The notes beneath the pieces were generated by a model, which saw only the letters and a program-made list of their open reading frames with translations, made no database searches and had not been told where the DNA came from. A DNA stretch of 64,000 bases, from assembly GCF_027595985.1 (NCBI RefSeq), contig NC_073305.1:169392172-169456171 (forward strand). Reading direction: 5' to 3'. Of the stretch, positions 10,497-63,351 are shown in pieces; positions within the stretch are counted from its first letter, which is position 1, and each line of letters begins with the position of its first letter. Both the position numbers and the translations under genes were made by a program. The DNA comes from Sorex araneus (taxonomy: Eukaryota > Chordata > Mammalia > Eulipotyphla > Soricidae).

Positions 10497-11020
10497 TATA
10501 TCACTGTATTGCTGTTATCCCGGTGTTCATTGATTTGATTGAGCGGGCACCAGTAACGTCTCCATTCATCCTTTTCTTGTGCTACTGTAGCCCGATGGCA
10601 TATTGGGAGCTCTTTCAGATCAGGGGAATGAGGACCATCGTTGTTACTGTTTTCGGCACATTGAGTATGCCATAGGTAGCTTGCCAGGCTCGGCGCTGCG
10701 GGTGGAATACTCTCAGTAGCTCGTTGGGCTCTCTGAGAGGGATGGAGGCTTTTGGGGAGGCCTCTAATCGCCTTTACAGGTGTTCTCAGTCTACAGAATG
10801 TAAGCTTTTGGCCGACTGGCATTTTGTAGCAATCTGCCCACTGACAAACACAAACCTTCCTGTGTCTCTCTCAGCAGCACCTGGGACATCTGCGGCCTCA
10901 TGTTGAACTCCTTGAGGTTGATGGAGAGTGCCCGGAGGTTGTTGCAGCTGGCAGAGTAGGACTCTATGGCGGAAGGTCTGTGCCAGGTTCAGCACCTGTT
11001 CTGAGTCCCAGGTCACCTAG
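10497..11020 (-). mobile_element. Composite SINE-B with an exon-like 5' module, antisense
   Basis: Read on the minus strand, the 3' part (10497-10745) is the long SINE-B form, including a LINE-derived stretch that translates to ATVAQEKDEWRRYWCP and the tail. The 5' part (about 10785-11015) encodes SINLKEFN in one frame and continues with gtttgtgtttgtcagtgggc. The same order of modules occurs on the plus strand at 60833-61332, so the composite moved as a unit. I do not recognise the source of the 5' module. Confidence 0.75.
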
Positions 11021-11204
11021 TGGTTGGCTGACAGCACCCCACAGTGGATAGGTCACTGTTCACACTGCTGCCACGGCTCTATGTATGACAGCATTGTGAC
11101 TTGATTTGCAAGATTCTTGAGATATAAAATAAAATTTTTGGTGGCGTGACAGTTCCCATCAAGGGACCTGGTGGTCTCAATGGTGATTCTCAGTCTAATA
11201 GGCC

Positions 11205-21839: not shown

Positions 21840-23035
21840 AATAGCTTAATACTTTTCATTGCTAACTCCACTTGGAATTCATTTATCTGTTGATGAACTT
21901 TTAAGTTGTTTGCAGTCTTTGATATCTAAAAATAAAATTTTATGAACATTCATATGGTTTTTGAATGGTGAGATGCTTTATTTATCTTGGGTAAATACCT
22001 AGGAATGACTGGTTCTTGAAGTTGGTTTATGTTTGACTTAAGAAATTGCCAAGGCCTTTTCCAAACATTCTCTGTTCCCATCTGCAGTTTAAGAGACTTC
22101 CTGTTTTAGTATATTTTTGCCAACACTTGGTGTGGTCAATATTTCCATTTTAACTATTGTAATAAGTGTTTAGTCAATCCAATTAGGATTTATCCCAAGT
22201 TCTTTAAGGATCATTTCGTATTCATATTATATGTCCTTATATCTTGTTTTGATATGTCTAAGTTGAAAGCTTTGGCCCATTTGAAAAGAATTGAGTTCTT
22301 TATTTTCTAAGTTGGAGAGATCATTATTAAATATATGAGTCACAAATATTTTCTTCCAAATTATGATTGTTTTTCATTCTTTTGATGATGTCTATTTTTT
22401 AATCTTATAAAAAATACTTTTCTGTGTCACTTCTATAAGGACTTAACCTGATAAGGATGATAACAATTTGTCTGTTAGAACTGTTAGTGCTTTAGATCTG
22501 ATGGTTATATCAATGATTTCCATCCTATGGTAAAGATCTTAATAAGATGAAACATACAATCACTGTATCACTGTCACTGTCATTCCATTGCTCATCGATT
22601 TGCTCCATTGTGAGACTTGTTGTTACTGTTTTTGGCATATTAAATACGTCACAGTTAGCTTGCCAGGTTCTGCCGTATGGGTGGGATACTCTCGGTAGCT
22701 TGATGGGCTCTCCGAGAGGGGTGGAGGAATCAACCTGGGTCGGCCGTGTGCAAGACAAATGCCCTACCCACTGTGCTATCGCTCCAGCCCCAAAATATAC
22801 AAATCCAAGTCAATTTTATATGTTTTCATATTTATATATACTTTTCCTAGCAATATTTATAAAAATATTAATCTTTTCCCACTAAGTTATGTTTAACCTT
22901 TGCTCAAATCACTTCTATACTTGTGTTGGTTATTTCTGGGTTATCTATTCTGATCCATTGGTATGAGTCATCTCTCTCCATACTACTGCCATTATACAAA
23001 AAAGATTAAAAGTCTGAGAATTCAAAATTCAAAAC
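21840..23035 (-). repeat. Old L1, antisense, interrupted by a SINE-B
   Basis: Antisense ORF2 words occur in order: ttgggtaaatacctaggaat, aaacattctctgttcccatc, ttgccaacacttggtgtgg, and after the SINE-B, ttatctattctgatccattgg. Frames are broken throughout. Confidence 0.7.
22560..22792 (-). mobile_element. SINE-B, antisense, within an old L1
   Basis: The plus strand starts with the tail (cactgtatcactgtcactgtc), shows tttggcatattaaatacgtc and ends in the head (gtgctatcgctccagcccc). Flanking words aacatacaa and aatatacaa suggest a 9-base target duplication with one change. Confidence 0.88.
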
Positions 23036-26251: not shown

Positions 26252-26508
26252 ACAGAACGGGAGCACTAGCACAGCAGGTAGGGCGTTTTCCTTGCACAAT
26301 ACCGACCTGGCTTTGATTACTCCGCCCCTCTTGGGGAGCCCGGAAAGCTACCGAGAGTATCCCGCCCGCACTGCAGAGCCTGGCAAGCTACCCGTGGTGT
26401 ATTCAATATGCCAAAAACAGTAACAATAAGTCTCACAATGGAAACATTACTGGTGCCCACTTGGGCAAATCGATGAACAACGGAAAGACAGTGCTACAGT
26501 GCGACAGT
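26252..26508 (+). mobile_element. SINE-B, nearly full length
   Basis: The head (gcactagcacagcaggtagg) joins a body with gctaccgagagtatcccgcc and ccaaaaacagtaacaata, and a tail of acagtg repeats. The word gttacata occurs at 26244-26251 and 26509-26516, a probable target duplication. Confidence 0.92.
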
Positions 26509-29507: not shown

Positions 29508-29752
29508 GCACTGTAGCACTGTAATCCCATTTTTCGACGATTTGCTCGAGCAGGCACCAGTAATGACTCCATTGTGGGAATTGTTACTGTTTTTGGCATA
29601 TTGAATACACCACGGATAGTTTGCCAGTCTCTGTTGTGCGGGCAGGATACTCTCAGTAGCTTGCTGGGCTGTCCAAAAGAGGTGGAGGAATTGAACCCAG
29701 GTTGGCCATGTGCAAAGCAAATACCCTACCTGCTGTGCTACCACTCCAGCCC
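29508..29752 (-). mobile_element. SINE-B, antisense
   Basis: Starts with the tail (gcactgtagcactgtaatcc), includes ttactgtttttggcatattg and ends with the head (tgctgtgctaccactccagc). Its insertion point is at the 3' tail of the preceding SINE-A. Confidence 0.92.
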
Positions 29753-31881: not shown

Positions 31882-32127
31882 GTCACTGTCACTGTCATCC
31901 CATTGCTCATCGATTTGCTCAAGTGGGCACCAGTAATGTCTCCATCTTGAGACTTGTTGTTACTGTTTTTGGCATATCCAATATGCCACAGGTAGCTTGC
32001 CAGGCTCTGCCATGTGGACAAGATACTCTCGGTACCTTGTCAGGCTCTCCGAGAGGGGCAGAGGAATTAAACTCAGGTCTGCCACTTGCAAGGCAAATGC
32101 TCTACCGATGTGCTATCACTCCAGCCT
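31882..32127 (-). mobile_element. SINE-B, antisense, with target duplication
   Basis: Full-length copy: tail (tcactgtcactgtcatccca), body and head (gatgtgctatcactccagcc). Perfect 10-base duplications cttctttctt lie at 31872-31881 and 32128-32137. Confidence 0.95.
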
Positions 32128-37201: not shown

Positions 37202-37459
37202 GCCTCTCGGAAAGCCCAGCAAGGTACCGAGAGTATCCTGCCTGCAAGGAAGAGCTTGGCAAGCTTCCCATGGCATATTCAATATGCCAAATACAGTAAC
37301 AATAACAGGTTTCATCCCCTGACCCTGAAAAGAGCCTCCAATTGTTGGGAAAATTGAGTAAAGAGAGGCTGCTAAAATCTCAGGGCTGGGACGAATAGAG
37401 ACATTATTGGCACCCGCTCAAATAAATCGATGAACAATGGGATGACAGTGATATAGTGA
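37202..37459 (+). mobile_element. SINE-B, long form, head missing
   Basis: Starts at gcctctcggaaagcccagc and includes the added segment (tttcatcccctgaccctgaa, gaggctgctaaaatctcagg) before the LINE-derived tail (aataaatcgatgaacaatgg). The tRNA-like head is replaced by the TA run. Confidence 0.88.
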
Positions 37460-38452: not shown

Positions 38453-38897
38453 CTTGGAGAGCCCGGCAAGCTACCGAGAGTATCCCGCCCACACAGGCAG
38501 AGCCTGGCAAGCTACCCGTGGCATTTTTTTTCCTTTTTGGGTCACACCGGCAATGCACAGGTGTTACTCCTGGCTCTGCACTCAGGAATTACTCCTGGCA
38601 GTGCTCGGGGGACCATATGGGATGCTGAGAATCAAACCTGGGTGGGCCGCATGCAAAGCAAATGCCCTACCTGCTGTGCTATTGCTCCAGCCCCCCATGG
38701 CATATTTGATATTCCAAAAATAGTAACAATAGGTCTCATTCCCCTGACCCTGAAAGAGCCTCTAACTGTTGGGAAAGACAAGTAAAGAGAGGCTGCTGAA
38801 GTCTCAGGGCTGGGAGGAATAGAGATGTTACTGGTGTCCACTCGAGTTGGACACCAAATTGATGAACAGCAGGATGACAGTGATACAGTGATCTTTA
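38453..38897 (+). mobile_element. SINE-B, long form, split by a SINE-A
   Basis: Body (agcccggcaagctaccgaga) runs to cccgtggcat, is split by a SINE-A, resumes at ccatggcatatttgatattc and ends in the tail. The tail and the following ctttaaaaatg are duplicated at 38879-38945. Confidence 0.9.
38525..38693 (-). mobile_element. SINE-A nested in SINE-B, antisense
   Basis: Complete antisense copy from the T run to gctattgctccagcc. The flanking words cccgtggcat and cccatggcat look like a 10-base target duplication with one change. It is therefore younger than the host SINE-B. Confidence 0.93.
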
Positions 38898-43145: not shown

Positions 43146-43166
43146 ATAAACATGAATTTATATTAT

Positions 43167-43328
43167 CACTGTATCACTGTCATCCCATTGCTCATCGATT
43201 TGCTTGAGCGGGCTCCAGTAACGTCTCCATTCGTCCCTATCACGTTCAGGGTCAGGGGAATGAGGCCTATTATTGTTACTGCTTTTGGCATATGGAATAT
43301 GCCATGGGTAACTTGCCAGACCTTGCTG
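43167..43328 (-). mobile_element. SINE-B, 5'-truncated, antisense, with target duplication
   Basis: Tail (cactgtatcactgtcatccc) and the added segment with ttcagggtcaggggaatgag are present; the head is absent. Perfect 10-base duplication tttatattat at 43157-43166 and 43329-43338. The truncation at the head end, with intact duplication, shows incomplete reverse transcription from the tail. Confidence 0.94.
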
Positions 43329-48780: not shown

Positions 48781-49538
48781 GGTGGCAACATGACACCCGC
48801 CATTGCCATGCCACTGATTCCATGCCAGGCTGTTTCACTAGGGGTGCCCCAGAGGGGGGTGAGAGTTCTCCCCACCCCGAGGGACCCAGCTCCGGCAACT
48901 GAAAACCTCCATAACCCAACTGTTGCATTGCTCAAGGCTGCTCCCCACATGCTTTAGCTGAGCCTCACTCATGAGTGAACATACTCCTGGACAATGTGGC
49001 CGCATTTGCAGCTGCATGATACATCATAAGACACTCCCTACCCATTCTCCAAGAGTACCACACCACATTTGATGGGGTTCAAATAGTAGGCAACCAACCA
49101 TAGAGGGATATATATGCATATATACATATTTTCTTGTATATATCATATTTTCATGTATATATGCATATACACATATTTTTGTATATATACGTATATATAT
49201 ATATACAAAAGCTCACATCACTCAACTTTTAACAGCATGTTAGTGATGTACTAAAGAATGTCTTAATGGCCCCTGCCAAAATAGAACAATCTTCACATTG
49301 TTTTCCCTATGAATCCTTTCTTAGCATTTTCAGTGGTTTTCTATAACAGACAACACAAAATATATTATTTCAGTTGTGCTTTGGGAAAGGGATTGGGGCT
49401 TGGAATGGAAACATCGCAAACATGGTGGTGGGAAGGTGTAATGATGATGGGATTGGTGTTTGAATATTAAATGTAATCAACAATTGTGAACTACCTAATT
49501 ACCTTATAAAATAAAAATGTTATGTAAAAAAGAGAAGA
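48781..49538 (+). mobile_element. G-family retroposon, copy 2
   Basis: The 5' part (catgccaggctgtttcacta, cattgctcaaggctgctccc, gctgagcctcactcatgagt) and the 3' part (catggtggtgggaaggtg, ttggtgtttgaatattaaat) match copy 1. It has a TA-rich expansion at 49105-49205. Flanking gaaaggagga at 48771-48780 and 49539-49548 is a possible target duplication in purine-rich DNA. Confidence 0.75.
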
Positions 49539-49680: not shown

Positions 49681-49935
49681 GGGCTGGAGCAATAGCACAG
49701 TGGGTAGGGTGTTTGCCTTGCATGGGGCTGACTTGGGTTTGATTCCTCTGCCCCTCTCAGAGAGCCCAGCAAGCTACCGAGAGTATTCCTCCATCACAGC
49801 TGAGCCTGGCAAGCTACCCATGGTGTATTCGATATGCCAAAAACAGTAACAACAAGTCTCACAATGGAGTTGTTACTGGTGCCCATTCGACCAAATCTAT
49901 GAGCAATGGGATGACAGTGATAGAGTGAAACAGTG
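49681..49935 (+). mobile_element. SINE-B, full length, with target duplication
   Basis: Head (gagcaatagcacagtgggta), body (ctaccgagagtattcctcca, gccaaaaacagtaacaacaa), LINE-like tail. Perfect 10-base duplication atattttatt at 49671-49680 and 49936-49945. Confidence 0.95.
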
Positions 49936-59627: not shown

Positions 59628-59885
59628 GCTGGAGTGATAGTTGGACTAGAGCTGTTACTGCCTGGATCTCATTGGACATCAGAAGACCTCATGGCCGCCC
59701 ACCAACGAGATGGTCAGACTTCTTTGTCAAATCCCTGAATGAATGATTTGAGGCTCTTCCTGTTCCTGGAGCAAGCAGATATCATTGGGCTGCACTAGCA
59801 CGCGGCAGGGACAAATGGAGATGTTACTGGTGCCTAATTGAGCAAATCGAAGATCAACAGGACGACAAGTGATACAAGTGATATT
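59628..59885 (+). mobile_element. Non-LTR LINE 3' end joined to a SINE head stub
   Basis: The first ~15 bases, gggctggagtgatag, are the start of the shared SINE head. They join directly to LINE-derived sequence that runs to a tail of gatacaagtgat. The LINE part encodes a C-terminal reading frame (see next entry). Its last ~65 bases are the same as the SINE-B 3' region, so it shows the origin of the SINE-B tail. Confidence 0.8.
59684..59872 (+). pseudogene. C-terminal remnant of a non-L1 LINE ORF
   Basis: The frame reads RPHGRPPTRWSDFFVKSLNE, then one in-frame TGA, then FEALPVPG and later GRDKWRCYWCLIEQI, ending at TGA 59870-59872 (63 codons including the stops). A GRPxTRW motif followed by a DRxxWR motif near the end is the C-terminal layout of RTE- and Ingi/Vingi-type LINE polyproteins; Vingi LINEs are known from hedgehogs, as I recall. 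The RT and endonuclease domains are missing. The exact clade is inference. Confidence 0.75.
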
Positions 59886-60775: not shown

Positions 60776-60832
60776 TCCTCTTTTAATGTGGGAATTTTAA
60801 TCCATTGTAATCATTATTCATTTACTCAGGCT

Positions 60833-61332
60833 GAGCCTCATGTATGAGTTAATATATTCCTAAACCACGTGGCCACAAAAGCACACTCCATCAACCTCAA
60901 GGAGTTCAACCTGAAGATGCAGATGTCCCAGGGTCGCAACCCAGAGACGCAGGCAGGTGAGTGTTTGTCAGTGTGCAGATTAGATTATTACAACACGCAA
61001 ATCTACCAAAAGCTTGTATTCAGTAGACTGGGAACACCTGTAAAGGAACTAGACGCTGCCCCAAAAGCCTCTGTCCCCCTCGGAGAGCCCAGCAACCTAC
61101 CGAGAATATTGCGCCCACATGGCAGAGCCTGGCAAGCTATCGTGGCATACTCAATATGCCAAAAACAGTAACAACAACGGTCCTCATTCCCCTGATCCTG
61201 AGAGAGTCCTCAATATGTCATCGAGCTACACTAGCACATGACAACATGACAGGGACAAATAAAGACGATACTGGTGCCCACTCGAGAAAATCAATGAACA
61301 ACGGGATGACAATGACAGTGATACAGTGATTC
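60833..61332 (+). mobile_element. Composite SINE-B with G-family and exon-like modules
   Basis: Three modules in order: a G-family piece (gctgagcctcatgtatgagt), an exon-like piece (60881-60958) with a consensus splice-donor word gcaggtgagt just after it, then long SINE-B from 61078 to the tail at 61332. The order of the second and third modules matches 10497-11020 on the other strand, including aagcctctgtccccctcgga against its counterpart. Confidence 0.78.
60881..60958 (+). pseudogene. Exon-like segment, source gene unknown
   Basis: One frame reads HSINLKEFNLKMQMSQGRNP, sharing SINLKEFN and QMSQ with the other copy (minus strand near 10880-10940). The join to gtgagt is a good donor. It looks like a captured gene piece carried inside a repeat, but I do not recognise the gene, and the intron-like flank is shared by both copies. 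Confidence 0.45.
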
Positions 61333-61334
61333 AT

Positions 61335-61795
61335 TTACTGTTGTTTGTTTTTCCCCCCAAATTTTCCAGAGTTTGACCATTGGGATTTCCATCAAATTTA
61401 TTTCAGTGTTTTACTTGGTCTCCTTTTTTTTTTAATGCCTCCTTCTTTTCTGGTACCATAAATTAATCTATATTCATTCATTTCTTTGGTCTCAGTTTGG
61501 AATCAGCTATTTCTCTAAGGATCTCTGGGATTTTTTTTAACTGAGGAAATGTTCCATGTATTATTAATGAAAACAAGATATCATATTCCATCACTTTAAG
61601 GCAATCCTAAAACATTGATTTAGGAAGCAGTATGAGTAGATAAGTGTAAAAAGATGAGAAAAGACATGTGGAAACTTGGCTTGTCTTCAAATGATTGACC
61701 TTAAAATCAGAAACACTGTTGGTTTTCCATTTTGCTAGTTGAAACAGCCCTGGGTACTTTATATACATTCAAACTCATAGTCAGAATGTGATGAC
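61335..61795. other. Unassigned interval
   Basis: No feature recognised. Confidence 0.4.
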
Positions 61796-62815: not shown

Positions 62816-62999
62816 CAAAAATGAATGAAGCCCTCAGAAAACATGAACTACCATATTTCCCCACCCATGTTGGTTTAAAGAGAAGGACTGAGAGAGACAG
62901 AGAGCCTACAGAGTTCTGAGATCTTCTAGGGGTATGGTTCTACATTTTCATATTTTTGTTTTTGTTTCATCTATTTTTATTGGACTACTTGAATTAAAA

Positions 63000-63245
63000 G
63001 CCAGAACGATAGCACAGCGGGTAGGGAGTTTTCCTTGCACGCAGCTGACCCAGGTTCGATTTCTCCATCCCTCTCGGAGAGCCTGGCAAGCGCTCGAGAG
63101 TATCCTGCCTGAACAGCAGAGCCTGACAAGCTACTCATGGCGTATTCGATATGCCAAAAACAGTAACAGCAAGTCTCACAATGGACGCGTTACCAATGCC
63201 CACTCGAGCAAATCAGTGAGCAATGGGATGACAGTGATACAGTGA
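63000..63245 (+). mobile_element. SINE-B, full length, reference copy
   Basis: Head with A box tagcacagcgg (63010-63020) and B box ggttcgattt (63053-63062), body, LINE-like tail and gatacagtga end. Perfect 14-base duplication tacttgaattaaaa at 62986-62999 and 63246-63259. It is the best copy for defining the family: 246 bases with no poly(A). Confidence 0.97.
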
Positions 63246-63351
63246 TACTTGAATTAAAATTGAAATGTAAGATAGAAGGTACCTTTTCTAACCCTGCTTT
63301 AGTCACACTAGAGTTAACTTAGACTTACCAGTGATGAATAACTTTCCAAGT

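Follow-up and report, generated by a model that had tools for sequence, protein, structure and literature searches.

SINE-A and SINE-B carry a common tRNA-like head in the genome of the shrew Sorex araneus, which raises the question of whether both families were moved by the same LINE machinery or by two. The preliminary description had claimed that SINE-B was moved by a different LINE than SINE-A. This was followed up in the window, a 64-kb stretch of shrew DNA, and in loci fetched from the same genome. We consider it quite likely that one RTE-type LINE fathered SINE-B, and that the same LINE family took up exon 1 of the host gene VAV3, from which an ORF-deleted derivative (element C) spread.

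SINE-B is built from a tRNA-like head, approximately 107 nt of LINE 5'UTR as its body, and the last 67 nt of the LINE as its tail. The complete copy at 63000-63245 is enclosed by a 14-bp target-site duplication on either side, and its end is formed by an RTE-like terminal repeat that the duplication directly adjoins. Six head-body-tail copies in total were detected in the window by blastn (Table 1). The same order was found in 53 chains of pieces from 90 loci and the window, a set in which 30 loci had been fetched using the copy at 63000-63245 as the query and in which L001 duplicates window copies. As a genome query, this copy returned at least 7,679 first-look candidates. New relative to the preliminary description are the LINE origin of the SINE-B body, which is 5'UTR, and the presence of VAV3 exon 1 in related elements.

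Table 1. Positions of SINE-B, LINE and ORF-deleted LINE derivatives in the 64-kb window.
Feature	Position	Strand	Basis or remark
SINE-B copy	63000..63245	+	head-body-tail order, read in window and blastn
tRNA-like head of SINE-B 63000-63245	63004-63059	+	
RTE 5'UTR body of SINE-B 63000-63245	63063-63168	+	
RTE 3' end of SINE-B 63000-63245	63180-63246	+	
Left target-site duplication of SINE-B 63000-63245	62986..62999		TACTTGAATTAAAA
Right target-site duplication of SINE-B 63000-63245	63246..63259		TACTTGAATTAAAA
SINE-B copy	22567..22790	-	blastn
SINE-B copy	26260..26501	+	blastn
SINE-B copy	29509..29752	-	blastn
SINE-B copy	31883..32126	-	blastn
SINE-B copy	49681..49928	+	blastn
RTE-type LINE 3' end: C-terminal ORF and terminal repeat	59642..59882	+	92% and 96% to LINE consensus pieces
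Element C, headless RTE derivative	60827..61328	+	blastn
VAV3 exon-1 piece in element C 60827-61328	60881-60931		
LINE 5'UTR in element C 60827-61328	60940-61178		
LINE 3' end in element C 60827-61328	61248-61330		
11-bp direct repeat flanking element C 60827-61328	60816-60826 and 61329-61339		ATTCATTTACT
Element C with long VAV3 exon-1 piece	10500..11101	-	blastn; exon-1 piece at 10881-11101
C2: ORF-deleted RTE derivative without VAV3 match	37203..37459	+	different breakpoints
C2-type derivative	38453..38892	+	interrupted by SINE-A (38533-38693, minus)
C-type derivative, 5'-truncated	43165..43319	-	

The sharing of the head between the two families was borne out when 97 of 106 head matches from the window and the loci were kept, comprising 44 B-type copies and 53 others. 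The consensus of the 53 non-B copies was SINE-A with an A-rich tail. An A-rich run within 45 nt past the 3' end followed 41 of 72 SINE-A copies and only 2 of 56 SINE-B copies, and its absence after the other 54 agrees with the earlier claim that SINE-B lacks poly(A). The A-rich tail of SINE-A would point to L1 as its machinery. Regarding the origin of the head, an Rfam search of the SINE-B window copy up to E 1 gave no match, and ARAGORN detected a tRNA in the SINE-B consensus (built from 30 copies, including the one at 63000-63245) with a score of 33 under a relaxed threshold. Motifs like boxes A and B were visible in the head. The SINE-B head may be tRNA-derived and is presumably of the pol III type.

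The preliminary description had likened the last ~65 bases of SINE-B to the LINE C-terminus at 59684-59872. The two consensus sequences, the LINE 3' consensus being built from 30 copies with the window copy included, were identical at 58 of 67 positions with an alignment score of 79, which upholds this likeness. The best score among 2000 mononucleotide shuffles was 30; a chance resemblance was therefore rejected, and its probability is negligible. The consensus tail frame of SINE-B translates to WRRYWCPLEQINEQWDDSDTV, and the C-terminal frame of the window LINE copy reads ALARGRDKWRCYWCLIEQIEDQQDDK before a stop. The open frame in the SINE-B tail is inherited LINE coding sequence and not a frame selected in the SINE. 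The terminal short repeats were GTGATACAGTGAT in SINE-B and AGTGATACAAGTGAT in the LINE. The concern that no LINE might carry this 3' end was answered by the C-terminus query, for which all 150 scored places matched at E <= 4.8e-31 and 161,780 first-look candidates were returned, a count that may include SINE tails. Another LINE type, represented by four side copies, was also compared with the SINE-B tail. L036 and L044 (59/67) were slightly closer to it than the window copy's subfamily (58/67), and L063 (56/65) and L051 (49/57) were no closer. No significant conserved RNA fold was found at the 3' end (z -0.37, -0.10 and -1.23).

The LINE family represented by the copy at 59642-59882 is the likely partner of SINE-B. 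Its 3' consensus carries a short terminal repeat. The reverse transcriptase region of a relative copy (L064) matched PF00078 at E 2.3e-6 with 27.9 bits, under the curated cut-off of 29.6, and the endonuclease frame was read by eye only. Four LINE copies (L067, L075, L092 and L082) have the body of SINE-B and element C immediately before the ORF start, with L082 holding only its last 60 nt. The 5' part of each of these four copies runs in the opposite orientation to the 3' part or to other pieces of the LINE, a pattern like twin priming. A VAV3 intron was also considered as the source of the SINE-B body and was rejected; the first ~1.2 kb of the intron remained unmatched, and the LINE copies have the body.

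Two further observations were made on LINE pieces in the window. Directly before the LINE 3' copy, 15 nt at 59628-59642 resemble the SINE head at its beginning (GGGCTGGAGTGATAG). This LINE copy is possibly a template-switch chimera, and no clear target-site duplication was found around it by eye. A fragment at 48880-49082 resembles the VAV3-free LINE 5'UTR, with the rest of the LINE absent.

Target-site duplications with a score of at least 9 were found for 16 of 55 SINE-B copies, compared to 14 of 647 mismatched pairs. The corresponding values were 8/32 versus a null of 4/377 for the LINE and 3/29 versus 3/334 for element C, the last being a weak signal. When the ends were fixed, in an earlier run, the values were 14/47 versus 8/928 for SINE-B and 1/11 versus 3/196 for element C. 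Non-CpG divergence from the consensus was 0.080 for SINE-B (56 copies; 0.097 for the 15 not selected by search), 0.068 for element C (29 copies; 0.089 for the two in the window), and 0.065 for the LINE (33 copies; 0.133 for two unselected copies). No age order was drawn for the three, because selection by search favours copies of low divergence.

The 3' end in common with an RTE-type LINE, the short terminal repeat, the scarcity of poly(A), and the target-site duplications of its own together make mobilisation by the RTE-type LINE the best reading for SINE-B. The same four lines of evidence favour the claim that SINE-B was moved by a different LINE than SINE-A. Most likely, the LINE reverse transcriptase would recognise the common 3' end and copy SINE-B in trans. 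Movement of SINE-B by L1, in the same way as SINE-A and with the LINE-derived part as passive cargo, would be in keeping with the common head and with the A-rich run that follows 2 of the 56 copies, and L1 is able to move many RNAs. However, the other 54 copies show no such run, and the last letters of the copy at 63000-63245 are the RTE-like repeat, with its duplication directly adjoining; we therefore consider movement by L1 very improbable.

Element C is a headless relative of SINE-B with a consensus of 870 nt (30 copies). Its 5' query returned 2,244 first-look candidates, and all 40 scored places matched. The VAV3 exon query returned 2,763, a set that overlaps with that of the 5' query, and all 150 scored places matched, the host gene among them. 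By extrapolation from these candidates, element C was probably amplified to thousands of copies. Because the breakpoints of element C and C2 differ, ORF-deleted forms of the LINE probably arose more than once. Approximately 10 nt of the C2-type derivative at 38453-38892 are present on both sides of the SINE-A inserted in it; thus, this derivative is older than the SINE-A insertion. In the element C copy L037, the 5' segment was matched three times consecutively (C5-C5-C5).

Upstream of the VAV3 part, element C carries a segment of 226 nt (segment X; consensus 1-226), which is also present in the LINE copy L094 at 156-357. Segment X contains the inner repeat GGAACTCTACGCGTGAT and returned 1,671 first-look candidates. 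Its best 40 places in the genome were dispersed, and no source for it was found among them. At seven element C loci, the sequence upstream of segment X is matched by the window element C at its 5' end, and at some of these seven it also matches a LINE 5'UTR.

The exon frame of the element C consensus (67 residues) was compared with PDB and matched Vav-3 (2d86) at E 1e-37, with the next Vav protein at 2.9e-26. The presumed host exon is located at C8:57892328-57892528, where the frame is open and 96% identical at the protein level; the other 149 places scored for the exon were at most 88% identical. At the DNA level, the consensus matches ~57 nt of VAV3 5'UTR and exon 1 of the host gene with 89% identity (237/266), and the match stops at CAG/GT. 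Past the residues MSQ, the Vav-3 protein continues with FL, whereas the DNA of the host gene continues with GTAAGG. Therefore, CAG/GT is the splice donor of exon 1. The GC content of the exon is 0.67 in the element C consensus and 0.71 in the gene. In 26 of 30 element C copies scored, the VAV3 piece had 252 nonsynonymous and 129 synonymous changes and 11 stops. The nonsynonymous/synonymous ratio of 1.95 compared to ~2.45 expected indicates that the piece is without strong coding constraint in element C.

L094 is a near-full-length LINE that carries, on one strand, segment X, VAV3 5'UTR and exon 1, LINE 5'UTR, the ORF start, endonuclease, reverse transcriptase, and the 3' end. Its reading frames are interrupted by stops, and its VAV3 part shows 84% identity. 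The VAV3-bearing LINE is known from this one copy read. A composite probe of VAV3, 5'UTR and ORF identified 3 of 40 scored places, L094 included, that span the exon and the ORF start. Another 36 matched the exon/5'UTR side only, and one matched the 5'UTR/ORF side only, namely L075, which had supplied part of the probe. The two spanning places besides L094, at C2:109303675-109304337 and C12:125527358-125528039, match only to positions 667 and 676 of the 773-nt query. They could be shorter derivatives with a longer 5' part, because both were absent among the 40 scored places of a query made from L094:379-1500.

With the L094:379-1500 query, a match to the VAV3 part was found in none of the 39 other scored places. 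The matches started at query position 262 in 21 of these, at 273-289 in 6, at 354-374 in 10, and at 439 in 2, and position 262 falls on the A of the junction AG, where exon and LINE meet. Three of the 21 VAV3-free LINEs were read at this junction as ACCAACAG followed by GTGCTG, ATGCTT and GTGCTG, and the AG is acceptor-like in these three copies. No pyrimidine tract precedes it, and both sides of the junction have CAGGT in common. When the probe was used without its VAV3 part, segment X was not found beside the junction AG in the scored VAV3-free LINEs; the main matches started no earlier than position 273 of 1140. At 6 places, the left flank (within query 14-75) was close by without segment X. 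The stretch between the exon and the 5'UTR was also considered as an intron, which was rejected, as LINE copies without a VAV3 match have it.

Because the host exon 1 ends at its own donor, CAG/GTAAGG, and meets an acceptor-like AG of the LINE, splicing is most likely the joining step, as in the joining of MAST2 to SVA_F1. An alternative is that the exon was joined by template switching of the reverse transcriptase at the common CAGGT. The five-base microhomology and the lack of a pyrimidine tract before the AG favour it, and template switching has been reported for RTE-clade LINEs in a study of U6 chimeras (PMC4476161). However, chance would rarely pick a place where an exon ending exactly at its donor meets an AG of the LINE, and we consider template switching unlikely here. 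Doubt also attaches to the order of events. An ORF-less element C may have taken up VAV3 before LINEs such as L094 gained the exon by recombination or conversion. The apparent rarity of VAV3-bearing LINEs argues for this order, as seen in the composite-probe counts and in the VAV3-free matches of the L094:379-1500 query. Against it, L094 keeps collinear order over the entire LINE and is diverged in its VAV3 part as an old member would be, which is weak evidence, and we regard an origin in element C as the less probable order. Under the preferred reading, in which the LINE came before element C, a VAV3 exon-1 transcript would most likely have been spliced into a LINE insertion, and the chimeric VAV3-LINE RNA would then have been retrotransposed. 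Element C would be the ORF-deleted offspring of the VAV3-bearing LINE that was amplified. The GC-rich exon may have donated a promoter to the element, by analogy with captured exons elsewhere.

The architecture of SINE-B is that of ruminant Bov-tA. The LINE described here is presumably a different RTE from Bov-B, with a C-terminus that we take to be unlike that of Bov-B. As listed in PMC3747384, Bov-tA combines a tRNA head with a tail common with the RTE LINE Bov-B, and the body of Bov-A2 is given as the 5' end of BovB, like the LINE 5'UTR body here. Bov-B entered ruminants horizontally (PMC3747384; PMC8620236). Unlike Bov-tA and Bov-A2, the headless element in the shrew carries a host exon. 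Within a single genome, a LINE is seen to spawn several non-autonomous families that differ in their breakpoints and heads.

ID is an L1-type SINE. In the springhare, Ped-2 joins an ID head to a BovB tail, like the use of one head with a second machinery in the shrew (PMC3747384). The species, the head and the LINE all differ between the two cases, but with Ped-2 listed, the use of one head with two machineries is not without precedent. The mammal rows of the table in PMC3747384, which include Bov-tA, Bov-A2, Ped-2 and other RTE pairs, contain no shrew pair.

RTE1_Sar of Sorex araneus is an RTE-type LINE abundant in the shrew genome, like the LINE here, and has been described as nematode-derived through a horizontal transfer involving strongylid nematodes (PMC6542046). 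RTE1_Sar is probably the LINE of this study, which would then be nematode-derived as reported in PMC6542046. The terms 'SINE' and 'vav' each occur 0 times in the main text of that paper. Among the top-listed open-licence PubMed Central papers, no title or abstract reported VAV3 in an RTE. A fuller account, in which a worm-derived LINE spliced VAV3 exon 1, perhaps with its promoter, into its 5'UTR and its ORF-less offspring reached thousands of places, is tentative, and we lean slightly against it as a whole. If true, the 5' end of a mammalian gene became a dispersed repeat.

The RTE-type LINE here also shows how the first exon of a host gene can be acquired by such an element. Trapping of exon 1 has been documented for SVA in apes (PMC6139936). 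In SVA_F1 (MAST2 exon 1) and pt_SVA_D6 (STK40 exon 1), a GC-rich host first exon replaces the 5' part of the retrotransposon, the captured exon ends at the 3' end of exon 1, and the element then amplifies, as in the shrew; in SVA_F1, the exon from MAST2 acts as a promoter (PMC6139936). An RTE-type case in an apparently much larger family would make the promoter role of a captured exon directly testable. Unlike in SVA_F1 and pt_SVA_D6, among the carriers in the shrew is an RTE-type LINE that has endonuclease and reverse transcriptase regions, and the exon query returned 2,763 first-look candidates compared to 84 and 94 copies of SVA_F1 and pt_SVA_D6, respectively (PMC6139936).
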